Part shown: positions 11,722 through 17,049 of the stretch, piece after piece
Numbering within the stretch: the first letter of the stretch is position 1
How the letters are laid out: the number at the start of each line of letters is the position of its first letter
IMG/VR virus record: IMGVR_UViG_3300011113_000590
Span: 1-51,295 of that record
Reading direction: 5' to 3' (one strand)
DNA from: a virus
DNA: 51,295 nucleotides
Program-made: the position numbers and the translations under genes
The notes under the pieces: generated by a model
The model's input: the letters and a program-made list of their open reading frames with translations, nothing else
Databases searched by the model: none
What the model was told of the DNA's origin: nothing

Positions 11722-11879
11722 TGGAAGAAGAACAAATTATTAAATGGAGAAAGGTTAAAGCCGCCTTGGAGGCGGCTGGTAAAACTAATTGTTATTTTTA
11801 TCAAAAGGCTTGCGCTGGTATCCAGGGTAAAGACCTTGATGTTTTCAAGGGAGGCTTGGCAACTGAGCCAAACAATTAA
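11721..11879 (+). CDS. 52-residue hypothetical protein
   Basis: ATG 11721 overlaps the preceding TGA and the frame ends at TAA 11877-11879. It starts MEEEQIIKWRKVKAALEAAG and continues with two Cys and a Gly-rich end (KGGLATEPNN). Tight coupling supports translation. It meets the convergent structural gene at its stop. No family recognised. Confidence 0.5.
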   Translation: MEEEQIIKWRKVKAALEAAGKTNCYFYQKACAGIQGKDLDVFKGGLATEPNN

Positions 11880-12211
11880 CCTGCGCCTATGCTAAATAGC
11901 ACGGTGGCTGCAGTGCCACCAGCTTCAGATACGAATATAGGTTGCACGTATTGCAATGGATGATTTGCAACATTATAATGAGTGGTTCCATTAGCTGAAA
12001 TTGTTTGATTAGCAATTACTTTTGACCAATTTGTACCATCAATAGAACCATTCAATGCAACGACAACGCTTGTATTAATAGATTCAACTGTAACAAAAAA
12101 CGTATAGTTTCGTGTAACAACAGCTTCACCTTGTTGAACTGGCATTACCTCGCCAGAAGCGGGAGCTGTTAATACAGGATAGGTACTAAACAAAGCCTGA
12201 GGAGAAGACAT
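11876..12211 (-). CDS. Putative virion structural protein, beta-rich
   Basis: The 111 residues are almost entirely short beta-type segments rich in Thr, Val, Ser and Gly (YTFFVTVESINTSVVVALNG, then a Gly/Thr-rich end), with no charged helices. This looks like a beta-sandwich decoration, head-fibre or tail-fibre module. It is isolated on the minus strand between plus-strand genes. Family not recognised. Confidence 0.55.
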   Translation of the reverse strand: MSSPQALFSTYPVLTAPASGEVMPVQQGEAVVTRNYTFFVTVESINTSVVVALNGSIDGTNWSKVIANQTISANGTTHYNVANHPLQYVQPIFVSEAGGTAATVLFSIGAG

Positions 12212-12262
12212 AATAAACTCTTTTTTATTATTCTAATTTAAGATTTTTAAAATAAGGTTTGA

Positions 12263-12271
12263 TAGACTATA
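12263..12271 (+). promoter_or_regulatory. Possible -10 region of the Dps operon
   Basis: TAGACTATA lies 26 nt before ATG 12289. The same nonamer lies 33 nt before the plus-strand gene at 17365, the other place where transcription should restart on the plus strand. No convincing -35 box is visible at either site. Confidence 0.28.
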
Positions 12272-12288
12272 CATATTGATAAAGACTT

Positions 12289-12840
12289 ATGTATACCTCT
12301 GGTCAGCCTCCTGTGCAATATGTTCCTGCGCCCCAGGTAGAGCCTAAGGTTGTAGAACCTAAAGCTAAGAAGACTAAAGCTGTAGTAGCCAAACCTGATA
12401 TTCCTACTTTTATTCAACAGTTGATTGCCCATGCTTCTTACGCAAATCAACTTTATACCCAAGCTCATCTAAACCACCTTAACTATGAAGGTAGTAACTT
12501 CTTTTCTATTCATGAGTTTTTAAAAGAACAATATGAAAAACATATTGATCAGTTTGATACGTTAGCTGAGTTCACGCGCAGCATGGATTACCTTATGCCA
12601 ATGTGTGGTTGTGGGTTAAAAGATGCTTACCCTGATTTTAAAAGTGTGACTAGTTATGATGGCAAAGCGATGTTGCTTACATACTTAAAGAACCTTGAAG
12701 ATTTTGGTATGCAATCAAAAGACTTGGGTGTTGCTGCAAAAGAAGTACAGGCGCCTGATGTAGAAAACTATGCTGCTGAATTAGTAGGTGATTCATTTAA
12801 ATCAGCTTGGTTTTTAAAAGCTGTATTGAGGAATAATTAA
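12289..12840 (+). CDS. Dps-type ferritin (DNA-binding protein from starved cells family)
   Basis: The four-helix Dps core covers about residues 37-180. The ferroxidase ligands occur with exact Dps spacing: H63, H75 (12 on), D90 (15 on), E94 (4 on), within NHLNYEGSNFF, SIHEFLKEQY and DTLAEF. The first 36 residues are a Pro/Lys-rich extension (KVVEPKAKKTKAVVAKP), the kind of tail that binds DNA in classical Dps. Dps dodecamers oxidise and store iron and shield DNA. Two Cys (MCGCG, near 106-108) are unusual. It is first in a four-gene operon ending with two very basic proteins, suggesting a DNA-protection or packing role; this is inference. Confidence 0.85.
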   Translation: MYTSGQPPVQYVPAPQVEPKVVEPKAKKTKAVVAKPDIPTFIQQLIAHASYANQLYTQAHLNHLNYEGSNFFSIHEFLKEQYEKHIDQFDTLAEFTRSMDYLMPMCGCGLKDAYPDFKSVTSYDGKAMLLTYLKNLEDFGMQSKDLGVAAKEVQAPDVENYAAELVGDSFKSAWFLKAVLRNN

Positions 12841-12841
12841 G

Positions 12842-13732
12842 ATGATTCCTTTAGCTGGACAAAACAGAGTTCTTAATTTTTTAACAACTCCTTTGGGAGA
12901 AGAAATTGGTGAAGGTATTATGGGAGGTGGAATAGCAGGGTTGTCCCAAATAGGTACTGATACAACACCTCAAGAAATAGCTTTAAAAACAACAGGTGCA
13001 ATTGCTGGGGGTATAGGTTTAGGTATAGTAGGCAGACGTGTTGGTGCAGCTATAGGTAAAAGAATTAATCCTAATGCATTAAAAAATCAAGAAGGAATGA
13101 TTGCTAGTTTGAGTAGGGTACTGGGTTCCGAATCTACTGTTGAAGGAGCTAAGCATCAAGCACAGGCAATGAAAAGTATTGTTCAAGAGTCTCTTGTTAA
13201 CGAGACCTCCGCAGCTATGCTAGAACAAGCTATTCAAAATCCTAATTTATTTGCTTCTAAATATGGTGTAACTGCTGATCAGTTTCAACAAGTAATGCCC
13301 TATGTAAAAAAAGGGAGAAAAGCAGCGGCTGCAGCAAGAACATTTGAAATGTTATCAGAAAAAGAAAAACATGAACTAGTACATAATCTTAAAAATACAT
13401 ACAAGCAAGTTGAGCAAGCTATTGTTACAAATGCTGCCAATAATATTGATGAAACTATTAAAAAAGCAGCCAATAACCCTGATTTTAAAGATATGAAAAT
13501 ACCAGGAGTAGACAAATCAGTTTCACAAATGTTTGAAAGTTTACTTAATCCCGCTCCTCCTGTCACAGGTGAGCATGTAGGCAGAGCTATAGGCAGGTTT
13601 GCTGGTGATGAAATAGGAGTATTGGCTGGACTAGGTGCGGCTAGTGCTCTAGCTGGACCATTGGGAATAGAAAGTCCTAAAGATATAAAAATTAAAAAAC
13701 TAGAACAAGAAATACAACAAAAAAAACGCTAA
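12842..13732 (+). CDS. Gly/Ala-rich amphipathic protein of the Dps operon
   Basis: Starts 1 nt after the Dps stop. The 296 residues have hydrophobic Gly/Ala-rich segments at about 22-80 (EGIMGGGIAGLSQIG, AIAGGIGLGIVGRRVGAAIG) and near 250-275 (VLAGLGAASALAGPLG), with charged helical regions between and a basic end. This arrangement resembles internal virion or membrane-active phage proteins, and the small protein at 50282-50860 has similar composition. No family recognised. TAATG coupling to the next gene. Confidence 0.65.
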   Translation: MIPLAGQNRVLNFLTTPLGEEIGEGIMGGGIAGLSQIGTDTTPQEIALKTTGAIAGGIGLGIVGRRVGAAIGKRINPNALKNQEGMIASLSRVLGSESTVEGAKHQAQAMKSIVQESLVNETSAAMLEQAIQNPNLFASKYGVTADQFQQVMPYVKKGRKAAAAARTFEMLSEKEKHELVHNLKNTYKQVEQAIVTNAANNIDETIKKAANNPDFKDMKIPGVDKSVSQMFESLLNPAPPVTGEHVGRAIGRFAGDEIGVLAGLGAASALAGPLGIESPKDIKIKKLEQEIQQKKR

Positions 13733-14016
13733 TGTCACAAGATACTAACAAATATACTAAGCCTGAACTGCGTGAACGTATCAAAGATCGTATAATGGCT
13801 GGTGACAAAGGAAGTAAGCCCGGTCAATGGAGCGCCCGTAAGTCTCAGCTTCTTGTGCAAGAATATGAAAAGGCTGGTGGTGGGTACCAAGGGGGGAAAG
13901 ACTCTAGGCAAAAATCACTAGAGAAATGGGGTAAAGAAAAGTGGCAAACAAAAGATGAGTATGAAAAACGTGGCAAAGCTAAAGCAGCTGCTAAAAAATA
14001 CAAGGAGAATAAATAA
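13732..14016 (+). CDS. Basic DUF5872-like protein
   Basis: The 94 residues are strongly basic. The signature KYTKPELRERIKDRIM, GDKGSKPGQWSARKSQLL and QEYEKAGGGYQG recalls a small family (DUF5872-like) met in giant viruses, algae and some bacteria and phages. The second half is Lys-rich with Trp-Gly-Lys blocks (EKWGKEKWQTKDEY). A nucleic-acid-binding or packing role is plausible from charge. The start overlaps the previous stop and the stop overlaps the next start. Confidence 0.68.
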   Translation: MSQDTNKYTKPELRERIKDRIMAGDKGSKPGQWSARKSQLLVQEYEKAGGGYQGGKDSRQKSLEKWGKEKWQTKDEYEKRGKAKAAAKKYKENK

Positions 14017-14213
14017 TGACTGACAAGGCAATTACACCAGACGGTACTAAGCGCTATCTGCCAGAGAAAGCGTGGGCTTCTTTGTCAAAAGAAGAACGCG
14101 CTAAGACTGACGCAAAGAAAAAAGCGGGTAGCAAACAGGGGAAACAATTTGTACCCAACACAGAAGCAGCTAAGAAAGCTAGTAAGAAAGCAAGGACACC
14201 TAAGAAAAAATAA
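14016..14213 (+). CDS. Small highly basic protein, last gene of the Dps operon
   Basis: The 65 residues contain RYLPEKAWASLSKEERAKT and then a Lys/Ala-rich tail (KKKAGSKQGKQF, AAKKASKKARTPKKK) like histone H1 tails. In other genomes this motif can occur with the DUF5872-like protein that precedes it here; I recall this rather than having checked it. Charge suggests DNA or RNA binding. It overlaps the preceding stop by one base. Confidence 0.66.
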   Translation: MTDKAITPDGTKRYLPEKAWASLSKEERAKTDAKKKAGSKQGKQFVPNTEAAKKASKKARTPKKK

Positions 14214-14220
14214 CTATGTA

Positions 14221-14421
14221 TCAAAAAGGCCCACACATTTTGTGGTCACCCATCTTAGCCATGAATTCATCAATGGTTTCTAGGGCGTCAAGCTTCATTA
14301 AGATCTCGGCCAAGCCTTGAATAATAATGGGGTGTTCCCCACGGGCAGCAAAAGCTAGTGCATTACGCAAGCTGGCGCCTGCTTCTTGTACTGAATCCTT
14401 TACTTGTTTTGATAATGCCAT
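14221..14421 (-). CDS. Conserved-looking small phage protein
   Basis: ATG at 14421 (minus) gives 66 residues starting MALSKQVKDSVQEAGASLRN. It is two or three helices with a conserved-looking AFAARGEHPIIIQGLAEIL segment, resembling short proteins common in cyanophage genomes. The 14-residue N-terminal extension to 14463 is considered unlikely. It is the most downstream gene of the minus-strand block. Function unknown. Confidence 0.6.
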   Translation of the reverse strand: MALSKQVKDSVQEAGASLRNALAFAARGEHPIIIQGLAEILMKLDALETIDEFMAKMGDHKMCGPF

Positions 14422-14502
14422 TTCAGATTCCTTGGGTTTCCTAAGTATAGGGTAGATGTACACAAAACAACTGCTGGTATTAACAGTATGACATAAAGGA
14501 CG

Positions 14503-15156
14503 TCAGTTGAGCAGACACTCTTGGATTGGAGAACTGACAGTATCAAGTTTGGTAACCGTCCAGATTAAATCATCATACCGACCCTTAGTGCGACGTACAT
14601 CAAATGTACGTACACTGTCAAAATAACGATCTTCTAGGCAATCAGTAAGAATATCCAAATGATTACTGTCTTGTATGTCTTCAATAATCAAAATACCGCC
14701 AGGCTTGAGCATTGAAAAATAAAAGTTAACGGCAAAGACCTGACTCTGTAGGGTATGAGGACCATCATCAATAATGACATCAAACCCATCGGGTACTTCT
14801 TTATTAAACTTCTGTACTGTTGTATCGTTATACCCATCAATGTTGTAAAAAGTATAGCGATCTGAATTCATGCTATCCCAAATTTTATTAGGGGCAATAT
14901 TAGCAATGTCTACCAGGTGTAGCTGGAAGTTAGGAAGGTAATCATGCCACAGCAAAGAAGATCCGCCGTGCTGTACACCTAACTCCAGTAGGGTGCCAGG
15001 GAGCTTCCGGTAAGGTTGTAGGACATGTTCATAGATTCCGGTATAGTTATGGATGGTATTTTTATCAGTGCCACCAACGGCTTCAAATCCATTGACCTCA
15101 TGTTTATTGAGGATTGCATTAATCTCTTGCGAGGGGATGTGCCAGAGTTGGTTCAT
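14503..15156 (-). CDS. Class I SAM-dependent methyltransferase
   Basis: The 217 residues have the SAM-binding motif LLELGVQHGGSSLLW (about residues 56-70), an acidic motif II (LHLVDIA, about 79-85), DVIIDDGPHTLQSQ (about 125-138) and PGGILIIEDIQD. This layout is that of sugar O-methyltransferases of the TylF/cephalosporin-hydroxylase-like group. It overlaps the upstream C-methyltransferase gene by 4 nt. It likely modifies a sugar added by the neighbouring glycosyltransferase, either on virion protein, DNA or host glycan; the target is unknown. Confidence 0.8.
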   Translation of the reverse strand: MNQLWHIPSQEINAILNKHEVNGFEAVGGTDKNTIHNYTGIYEHVLQPYRKLPGTLLELGVQHGGSSLLWHDYLPNFQLHLVDIANIAPNKIWDSMNSDRYTFYNIDGYNDTTVQKFNKEVPDGFDVIIDDGPHTLQSQVFAVNFYFSMLKPGGILIIEDIQDSNHLDILTDCLEDRYFDSVRTFDVRRTKGRYDDLIWTVTKLDTVSSPIQECLLN

Positions 15157-16397
15157 TGTTGGAAGTAAGACCTGTTGTCATCATACATGTCAATCTCAGT
15201 GGACGGTAGCATTGTGATGATTCGACCTTCATAGTAAGACCGCAGGTCCTGTATGAGATAATCTCTGTAGTTATGAGCAAGAATAATGAGATTATCAGGT
15301 TTGTTTTTGTATAGGTAGTTACGATCTAAGATCTGCATCCCGGTACCAGGGACATATAACCCTTGCTTGGCCTTGGTATCATCAACAACATATGCACTGG
15401 AATCTGTTGTAGTACTAATGTTCAAAGCATTAAGGTACACACAGCCTTTTGCAGCTGCACCAAAGTAGGCAGTAGTGCCTTCCAGGTTATTAAGGAAGAC
15501 TGTGTCTCTAAGAATTTTGACATTTACCTTAGAGCAATACTGGCTGTAGTCAAATTCTTTTTCTTTTTCTATGTACTTAAGATGGGCATTGGTGCCAGCG
15601 TAAGCAGGCTTGTTGGTAATCCATAGGCGCATTGTTCCGCCATGAATGGGTTTTTCCTGAGCATGAAAGATGGTGAGGCCATACTTCTTGAAGATTTTTT
15701 CAAGGGGCGTGACTAGCCAGTAGTAGTAATGCTCATGGTAAAACTGATCGAATTGTAAAGTTTTAATTGTATTTAGGGTATATGGAAATTCCAGAATCCA
15801 TACACCGTCTAGATGTTGCTTGATACCGTCTACAAACTTATGTATGTCAGGCGTATGTTGTAACACATTGGTAGAAATAATCATGTCTGCCTTGGGCAGA
15901 TCTAGATCTTTATTGAAATATGCATTGACATATTCAATGTTGGAAAGATGGTTTTCTTCCTTAAAAGACTCACTGGCATCTACGTTGATTAGACGTAGCT
16001 TATTATTAGTTTGTTCTTGAAAAACTTTAAGAAGGGTGCCGTCGTTACCACCAATGTCAATGATGGTGTCATGCTTAAGATGTTTGATTTCGTGCCAAAG
16101 AAGGCGGCAGTGGTTGATGTACGGCTTGTTAACCCCTGAATAATATAAGTAATTCTTATATAGTTTACTTGATGGAACTGCGGTATCTAGTTTAATTACT
16201 AGATCTTTATCAATAGTTGCTCTAAGTTTGTACTTTTCAATAGATAACGATTCTTCTTTGGTGGTGCAAAGGTTATTGACCAGGGGCTGGAGGCCTAGAT
16301 CAAGCAATACATCCTCAGGTCCATCGGAGGGCTTGGGTCCTAGTTGGGCTGTACTTCCAGTAATCGACTGGAACATTTTGGTTAAACGGCGTAACAT
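15153..16397 (-). CDS. Sugar C-methyltransferase-like protein (TylC3/NovU type)
   Basis: The protein has three expected parts: LLDLGLQPLVNNL near the N-terminus, a SAM fold with IIDIGGNDGTLL and a later STNVLQHTPD, and a C-terminal Rossmann-like part with AYFGAAAKG and VVDDTKAKQG. This is the C-3 methyltransferase family of deoxysugar pathways, including FYHEHYYYW. The Cys-rich zinc motif that usually opens the family is absent, so the N-terminus is shortened. Start uncertain: ATG 16397 is used; GTG 16421 and ATG 16373 are alternatives. All overlap the upstream gene. Confidence 0.75.
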   Translation of the reverse strand: MLRRLTKMFQSITGSTAQLGPKPSDGPEDVLLDLGLQPLVNNLCTTKEESLSIEKYKLRATIDKDLVIKLDTAVPSSKLYKNYLYYSGVNKPYINHCRLLWHEIKHLKHDTIIDIGGNDGTLLKVFQEQTNNKLRLINVDASESFKEENHLSNIEYVNAYFNKDLDLPKADMIISTNVLQHTPDIHKFVDGIKQHLDGVWILEFPYTLNTIKTLQFDQFYHEHYYYWLVTPLEKIFKKYGLTIFHAQEKPIHGGTMRLWITNKPAYAGTNAHLKYIEKEKEFDYSQYCSKVNVKILRDTVFLNNLEGTTAYFGAAAKGCVYLNALNISTTTDSSAYVVDDTKAKQGLYVPGTGMQILDRNYLYKNKPDNLIILAHNYRDYLIQDLRSYYEGRIITMLPSTEIDMYDDNRSYFQQ

Positions 16398-17049
16398 AGG
16401 TTTCTCGGTTGGGAGGTCCACCCCATTTCCTTACATAATAGTTGTAATTCTCTTGGAATGAAACAGTATTCTTTCTTTGGAATGATTCTGTACTATTTAG
16501 TGTACTACTAGTAGCATGTTCACTGGCTAAGGGGATGGAGCCAATCTTGGTATTGGTAAGCTTTAGGCGATAACGGTAATCATTGTCTTCAAAATAACCA
16601 GGGAAAAAGTTTTCATCAAAGTAACCAACACGTTGCAATAGTGTGGAAGTCAAGACCATGCCACACATCTCATCATTTCCTAGCCCCAGGGTAGCCCCGA
16701 AGGGCAGCTGACCTACGCGATCAAGAACTTTTTGCCACTCGCCAGGGGCAGGCCACCAATCAAAACCGCTAATAACCCAATAATCACAGTCGGTATTTTG
16801 ACGGATCGTTAGGTTGACGGCACCAGGGAATCCAGTGTTTTGATAAACAGAACAAACTGCTACCTCATCGATGTGGTCGGGTTTAGTGTCTAAGATTTCT
16901 TTGATGGCTTCATTGACGGACGGATCTTTATCCATGGAATTATCCAAGATAAAGTACCGACGCAGTGGTACGTCTACAGTTTTGAAATGGCGGAGAAGCT
17001 TTGCGCCATCTACCAAGATGGGAACAGCAATAATAGGAAGCTTGTTCAT
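16315..17049 (-). CDS. Glycosyltransferase family 2-like protein
   Basis: The 244 residues start with a Rossmann-type strand (PIIAVPILVDGAKLLRHF), continue with YFILDNSMDK and FPGAVNLTIRQNTDCDYWVI, and carry GYFDENFFPGYFEDNDYRYR, the GT-A acceptor-side motif with an acidic ED pair. The nucleotide-sugar DxD is not obvious; DCDYW or GFDWW may replace it. It should transfer a sugar that the two downstream methyltransferases modify. It overlaps the upstream small gene by 4 nt. Confidence 0.78.
   Translation of the reverse strand: MNKLPIIAVPILVDGAKLLRHFKTVDVPLRRYFILDNSMDKDPSVNEAIKEILDTKPDHIDEVAVCSVYQNTGFPGAVNLTIRQNTDCDYWVISGFDWWPAPGEWQKVLDRVGQLPFGATLGLGNDEMCGMVLTSTLLQRVGYFDENFFPGYFEDNDYRYRLKLTNTKIGSIPLASEHATSSTLNSTESFQRKNTVSFQENYNYYVRKWGGPPNRETYVTPFNQNVPVDYWKYSPTRTQALRWT

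Follow-up and report, generated by a model that had tools for sequence, protein, structure and literature searches.

We consider it fairly probable that the four closely coupled ORFs at positions 12,289 to 14,213 of the virus record analyzed here are three pieces that evolve independently and lie side by side in a phage of the S-EIV1 type, where a conserved ferroxidase gene adjoins an exchangeable locus for tagged cargo resembling the internal-protein locus of phage T4. New in this picture are the recognition of ORF3 and ORF4 as halves of one protein and a tag-sharing hypervariable cargo slot at two fixed sites. The ORFs had been noticed in a sequence-only reading, which saw in them an operon for coating, condensing or shielding DNA. 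The observation of four coupled ORFs was confirmed; the interpretation was partly supported.

The window, i.e. the whole 51 kb IMG/VR virus record (51,295 nucleotides), has the freshwater cyanophage S-EIV1 (KJ410740) as its closest named relative. Its plus strand carries genes for a DNA polymerase, an SSB, an exonuclease and a primase together with the four-ORF unit, and its minus strand the major head protein and a large tail-fibre-like protein. All four ORFs were found on the plus strand at the claimed place. ORF1 and ORF2 are separated by a gap of 1 bp, and ORF2 and ORF3 as well as ORF3 and ORF4 share a 1-bp stop/start overlap, which bears out the close coupling. The calculated pI rises from 5.7 (ORF1) over 9.1 (ORF2) and 9.9 (ORF3) to 10.3 (ORF4). 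For comparison we distinguished between freshwater-type relatives of the window (group A) and a second set of dps loci (group B).

The Dps-type mini-ferritin

ORF1 (dps, 12,289–12,840, plus strand) encodes 183 amino acids and matches the Pfam ferritin family PF00210 above the curated threshold (42.3 bits, E 9e-11, cut-off 24.5), PHROG 3636 (E 5e-23) and Helicobacter pylori NapA (3t9j, E 6e-8, residues 51–180). A family profile built from the phage Dps proteins aligned to 3kwo over nearly the full domain length (E 1e-11). The His-His-Asp-Glu ligands H63, H75, D90 and E94 show the spacing of Dps proteins (12, 15, 4) and are invariant in 82 of 82 phage relatives. The proposal of a Dps with all four ferroxidase ligands was thereby borne out, and we take the sequence evidence to settle the fold: ORF1 is a Dps-type mini-ferritin.

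The protein shares the nearly full-length ferritin-like domain and the four ligands with the bacterial Dps and NapA proteins (3t9j, 3kwo), and differs from them at two positions and in a phage-specific N-terminal tail. Four residues after the second His, ORF1 carries Lys79 (K in 70 and G in 11 of the 82 relatives), where NapA has a Glu and E. coli Dps the acidic D67. Leu64, almost invariant in the phage relatives, occupies the place of Trp52 beside the first His of the E. coli site. Both the acid and the Trp are secondary features that are not universal among Dps proteins. Their replacement in ORF1 could weaken the ferroxidase activity.

Basic N-terminal DNA-binding tails are found in only a subset of Dps proteins. 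In the phage proteins the mean net charge of the tail is +1.4 in group A (weakly basic) and −5.5 in group B (acidic), so the DNA-binding-like tail that had been noticed is not supported as a conserved feature. The change in charge between the groups argues for ferroxidase activity as the more likely conserved function, over DNA binding. Homology and invariant ligands are observed; activity, host and purpose we infer from them. During infection, the Dps nanocage would bind and oxidize Fe(II), which would most likely keep Fenton damage low in a cyanobacterial host that is rich in iron and exposed to light.

A pattern scan of 84,980 GTDB species, which detects fairly close relatives only, gave one distant cellular match to the phage Dps. 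Because of this, ORF1 seems to be a Dps that has long belonged to the phage lineage. The presence of a Dps in the S-EIV1-like lineage is itself already known: the S-EIV1 protein (AHV82153), 50–54% identical to ORF1, is annotated as “DNA-binding ferritin-like protein”. For this reason the view that no such phage module had been described is only half right. A Dps-like gene has also been described in Lactobacillus plantarum phages (PMC6669764).

Directly upstream of dps, and reaching up to its ATG, lies a conserved 5’ element (TTGATARACTANNNNTA...TGAT; 12,259–12,288, plus strand), visible in most of the group A loci shown. It occurs as a single copy in the window, and we rejected it as a general phage promoter.

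A split DUF5872-type protein and its position relative to dps

ORF3 (13,732–14,016, plus strand, 94 aa) and ORF4 (14,016–14,213, plus strand, 65 aa) had been described as two independent basic proteins, one DUF5872-like and one similar to a histone H1 tail. Both align along a single fused homologue, gp97 of phage S-CRES1 (132 aa): ORF3 with residues 2–67 (49% identity, E 7e-17) and ORF4 with residues 82–131 (62% identity over 50 residues, E 2e-18). The ORF4 alignment reaches 60.1 bits, compared to 22.7 bits for the best of the ORF4 shuffles. These alignments argue that ORF3 and ORF4 are not independent proteins but the N- and C-terminal halves of a single DUF5872-type protein, which is small and very basic; the histone-H1-like assignment of ORF4 was therefore rejected. 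The DUF5872 likeness of ORF3 is supported by phrog_17747 (E 5e-19) and by the homology to gp97, although its PF19197 match (26.2 bits) is below the Pfam cut-off of 27.5. ORF4 is further assigned to phrog_14910. The concatenated ORF3 and ORF4 sequence gave no Pfam match, and gp97 is itself a weak member of PF19197 (E 0.046, positions 4–113). Roseobacter phage CRP-9 and Pelagibacter phage HTVC034P likewise carry this protein as two genes, split at other points. To our knowledge no function is known for the DUF5872 family.

The 3’ boundary of the unit is marked by a convergent, conserved phrog_1179 gene of unknown function (14,221–14,463, minus strand). Beyond it, three minus-strand ORFs (14,503–17,049) resemble, by appearance only, methyltransferase and glycosyltransferase genes, and have relatives in L002–L004.

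We then compared the position of the DUF5872 pair and of dps in those 48 loci of group A that extend 5.5 kb or more beyond dps. In 35 loci the pair lies on the opposite strand at a distance of 1–5 kb, in three (L002–L004) on the same strand as dps, and in ten it is absent within range. The pair thus lies within 6 kb of dps in 38 of the 48 loci; their closeness in many relatives was confirmed, and the refuting case, genes that never occur together, did not arise. For the 16 group B loci no pair was found within range of dps, and a distant copy elsewhere was detected in 7 of the 10 records searched. Behind the distant pair of group B phages (L098:628–2137) comes another small basic ORF, the third in the row, which resembles S-CRES1 gp98; short virion-like ORFs are adjacent.

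The co-directional arrangement of dps, a slot gene and the pair is confined to the window, L002, L003 and L004, and since L002 and L003 contain a different second gene, the full order of all four genes is restricted to the window and L004. A search for the complete set in other phages was therefore successful only for L004, and the idea of a conserved four-gene system was not sustained. The arrangement would be explained most simply by an inversion in one sub-lineage, which may have brought the DUF5872 pair onto the dps strand and so created an apparent operon.

A joint function with Dps is not favored by the wider distribution either. DUF5872-like genes were found in 20 phage records; in the 19 that are not S-EIV1, tblastn (E 1e-3) detected no Dps match. 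Conversely, four dps contigs of 70–84 kb gave no DUF5872 match at all. In three of four records inspected (HMO-2011, CRP-9, S-CRES1) the DUF5872 gene is located near lysis, terminase or virion genes, and in the fourth, HTVC034P, near a putative M15 peptidase. A single system of all four genes, coating or condensing DNA in the virion or on replicating DNA, would agree with the close coupling in the window, the proximity of the pair to dps in group A, the Lys-containing Dps tail in the same group and the insertion of one tagged cargo family beside both genes (see below). With the co-directional order limited to four loci, ORF2 to two, each partner found in phage records or contigs that gave no match to the other and the tail acidic in group B, we consider such a system very improbable.

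A hypervariable slot with tagged proteins

ORF2 (12,842–13,732, plus strand) encodes a protein of 296 amino acids with 23% Gly+Ala and, according to hydropathy, hydrophobic segments at residues 46–64 and 258–276. A single relative was found in IMG/VR (L004, 81% identity). Searches against Pfam, PHROGs and NCBIfam returned sub-threshold matches to unrelated families only, and the AlphaFold model (2-sequence alignment) was unusable at pLDDT 39 and kept out of the fold searches.

In other S-EIV1-like contigs a different gene occupies this position; its start is only a few bases away from the dps stop codon, and the encoded proteins have 86 to 809 amino acids. Most coupling gaps measure −4 to +1 bp, and many of the genes show an ATGA overlap. 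Among 26 locus pairs with 90–97% identical Dps proteins, 21 showed no detectable similarity between the slot genes and one had slot genes homologous over at least 70%. Even the closest relatives of the window differ, with 514 aa in L002, 523 aa in L003 and 296 aa in L004 as in the window. No gene starts near dps in 43 of 82 loci, a number that includes all group B loci and contigs ending too soon. From these comparisons the slot directly 3’ of dps is, as judged by sequence, hypervariable, with exchangeable genes that we regard as putative cargo. It would supply a quickly exchanged payload, with ORF2 as the occupant in the window. One slot protein (L055:1032–2936) shows a weak ABC1/kinase-like match (Pfam E 0.02).

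Two classes of slot proteins can be distinguished. In class I, an amphipathic helix at the N-terminus and a linker are common to the proteins, and the bodies differ. The consensus of this tag is about LFQ..LN.V...Y..ADK..GGWLPGGGTASP, its profile matches diverse bodies at about 1e-14 to 1e-24, and the helix has a hydrophobic moment of 0.53 vs. 0.19 for shuffled sequences. Class II proteins carry one of two recurring C-terminal tags; among them is the S-EIV1 slot protein AHV82152 (L082:12444–13910, 488 aa), annotated as “sulfate adenylyltransferase” and without Pfam match. ORF2 has neither a class I nor a class II tag and has in common with the other slot proteins only its position and Gly/Ala-rich hydrophobic character.

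An independent search for class I proteins yielded 22 loci, including the near-identical L118–120: in 14 the gene belongs to the array downstream of dps, in 7 it separates the DUF5872 halves, and one locus is cut at the contig end. In the loci searched, class I tagged cargo was thus found at just two sites, 3’ of dps or between the DUF5872 halves. Both halves are present in 54 loci; they are adjacent in 31, and at least 11 of the 54 contain a coupled, same-strand, cargo-like ORF between them. In our reading the DUF5872 split point is the second insertion site of the same cargo family, and since tagged cargo occupies both sites, dps and the DUF5872 pair are linked via a common inserted family and not as a fixed operon.

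In the class I bodies of five loci (L088:514–1620 on the minus strand, L047, L051, L006 and L034) Zn-peptidase-like HExxH...ExxAD motifs could be aligned, which resemble those of membrane-type zinc peptidases. The Pfam matches of these proteins were all sub-threshold, the PDB profile search found nothing, and an AlphaFold model from the 5-sequence alignment was unusable (pLDDT 40) and likewise kept out of the fold searches. The peptidase-like gene of L088 separates the two DUF5872 halves in that genome, and dps is about 37 kb away.

In many loci the slot is flanked by HNH-like endonuclease genes, which were identified by visual inspection of motifs. In L105 (positions 1–770) the dps stop codon is followed by an HNH/AP2-like ORF and then by a second dps 3’ end that is joined directly to a class I gene. 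Such a structure would be expected to remain after an exchange anchored on the 3’ end of dps; L105 is the one example, with no further duplicated dps 3’ ends in the other loci searched. A group I intron was rejected as explanation for L105, as Rfam found only a tRNA. The flanking HNH-like genes, the duplicated end in L105 and the split and interrupted DUF5872 gene would all be expected if the slot genes, including ORF2, were selfish or nearly neutral cargo, kept by HNH homing endonucleases with targets in the 3’ end of dps and in the DUF5872 gene. We regard this as quite unlikely: the slot ORFs are intact and translationally coupled and their tags are kept across divergent bodies, which implies selection on the slot products, and just one duplicated end was seen.

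Genomic context and comparison with known systems

A common tag on differing bodies suggests a common destination. The slot proteins may thus be targeted cargo, perhaps co-packaged, ejected effectors or anti-defense proteins, and by analogy to T4 their packaging into the virion is conceivable. The genomic context gives signals in both directions. In favor of a late or virion role, 47 loci have a virion structural gene (phrog_1645) upstream of dps, and in 44 of them it is encoded on the dps strand and ends at a distance of 26–52 bp. Against it, dps in the window is located on the strand of the replication genes, opposite to the major head protein. In ten group A loci a divergent 111-aa ORF (cluster 18; in the window at 11,876–12,211, minus strand; no significant PHROG match) takes the place of the phrog_1645 gene 5’ of dps; HMO-2011 gp64 was rejected as its relative. 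In group B, dps follows an HTH-like gene and not a virion gene.

Also in favor of a virion role, the phrog_1645 protein has a homologue in the SAR116 phage HMO-2011, two genes from the DUF5872 gene of that phage. The 62% identity of this virion structural protein between S-EIV1-like phages and HMO-2011 (L013:4598–5917 and L093:4194–5453) suggests exchange across phages of unrelated hosts.

The slot could also encode early or middle proteins for host takeover or anti-defense that are not packaged; dps would then be an auxiliary stress gene belonging to the replication strand, and its proximity to a virion gene would be incidental. The strand shared with the replication genes in the window, the HTH-like neighbor of dps in group B, and the rapid turnover and enzyme-like bodies of the slot proteins, which fit host-conflict genes, speak for this possibility. 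With phrog_1645 directly and closely upstream in most group A loci, and with a conserved amphipathic tag that implies a common destination, we judge it somewhat unlikely. Extending our preferred reading of a conserved ferroxidase gene beside an exchangeable cargo locus, the tagged polymorphic effectors coupled to Dps or to the split DUF5872 protein could be loaded into the virion, or onto a complex of Dps and the basic protein, and be ejected, homing endonucleases swapping the payload at the two fixed sites. This complete delivery scheme is tentative and, in our estimate, unlikely.

S-EIV1-like phages are common among the IMG/VR contigs searched, and most of their genes have no assigned function. 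Should the slot prove to be a payload site, its tagged proteins would be immediate candidates for anti-host or anti-defense roles, and one could try whether the short tag brings proteins into phage heads. With the phage Dps it would be possible to examine directly what iron and peroxide do when a cyanophage infects its host.

S-EIV1 itself is of the same lineage as the window, with the same dps, a coupled slot gene downstream and a DUF5872 pair nearby. In contrast to the window, its slot gene is unrelated, and the pair lies on the opposite strand with the halves separated by a 76-aa ORF. Unlike the DUF5872 genes of S-CRES1, CRP-9 and HTVC034P, those of S-EIV1-like phages can have tagged cargo at the split. 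MuF polymorphic toxins of temperate phages, one analogue of the slot, combine a packaging-module domain with variable effector-like domains (PMC5576092). The slot proteins are similarly modular, with a common module and variable effector-like domains; the MuF toxins differ in the packaging-module domain of temperate phages and in their locus, and no MuF match was found among the slot proteins scanned. The internal-protein locus of T4 encodes diverse injected proteins that have only a capsid targeting sequence in common (PMC3012670). It resembles the slot in a conserved N-terminal tag (here that of class I, lacking in ORF2 and with a putative targeting role), rapidly exchanged bodies and a fixed locus. 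Packaging and injection have been shown for T4 and would be putative properties of the slot proteins, and the anchor of the slot is the Dps gene. On this comparison, the T4 internal-protein locus is the closest working analogue of the slot.
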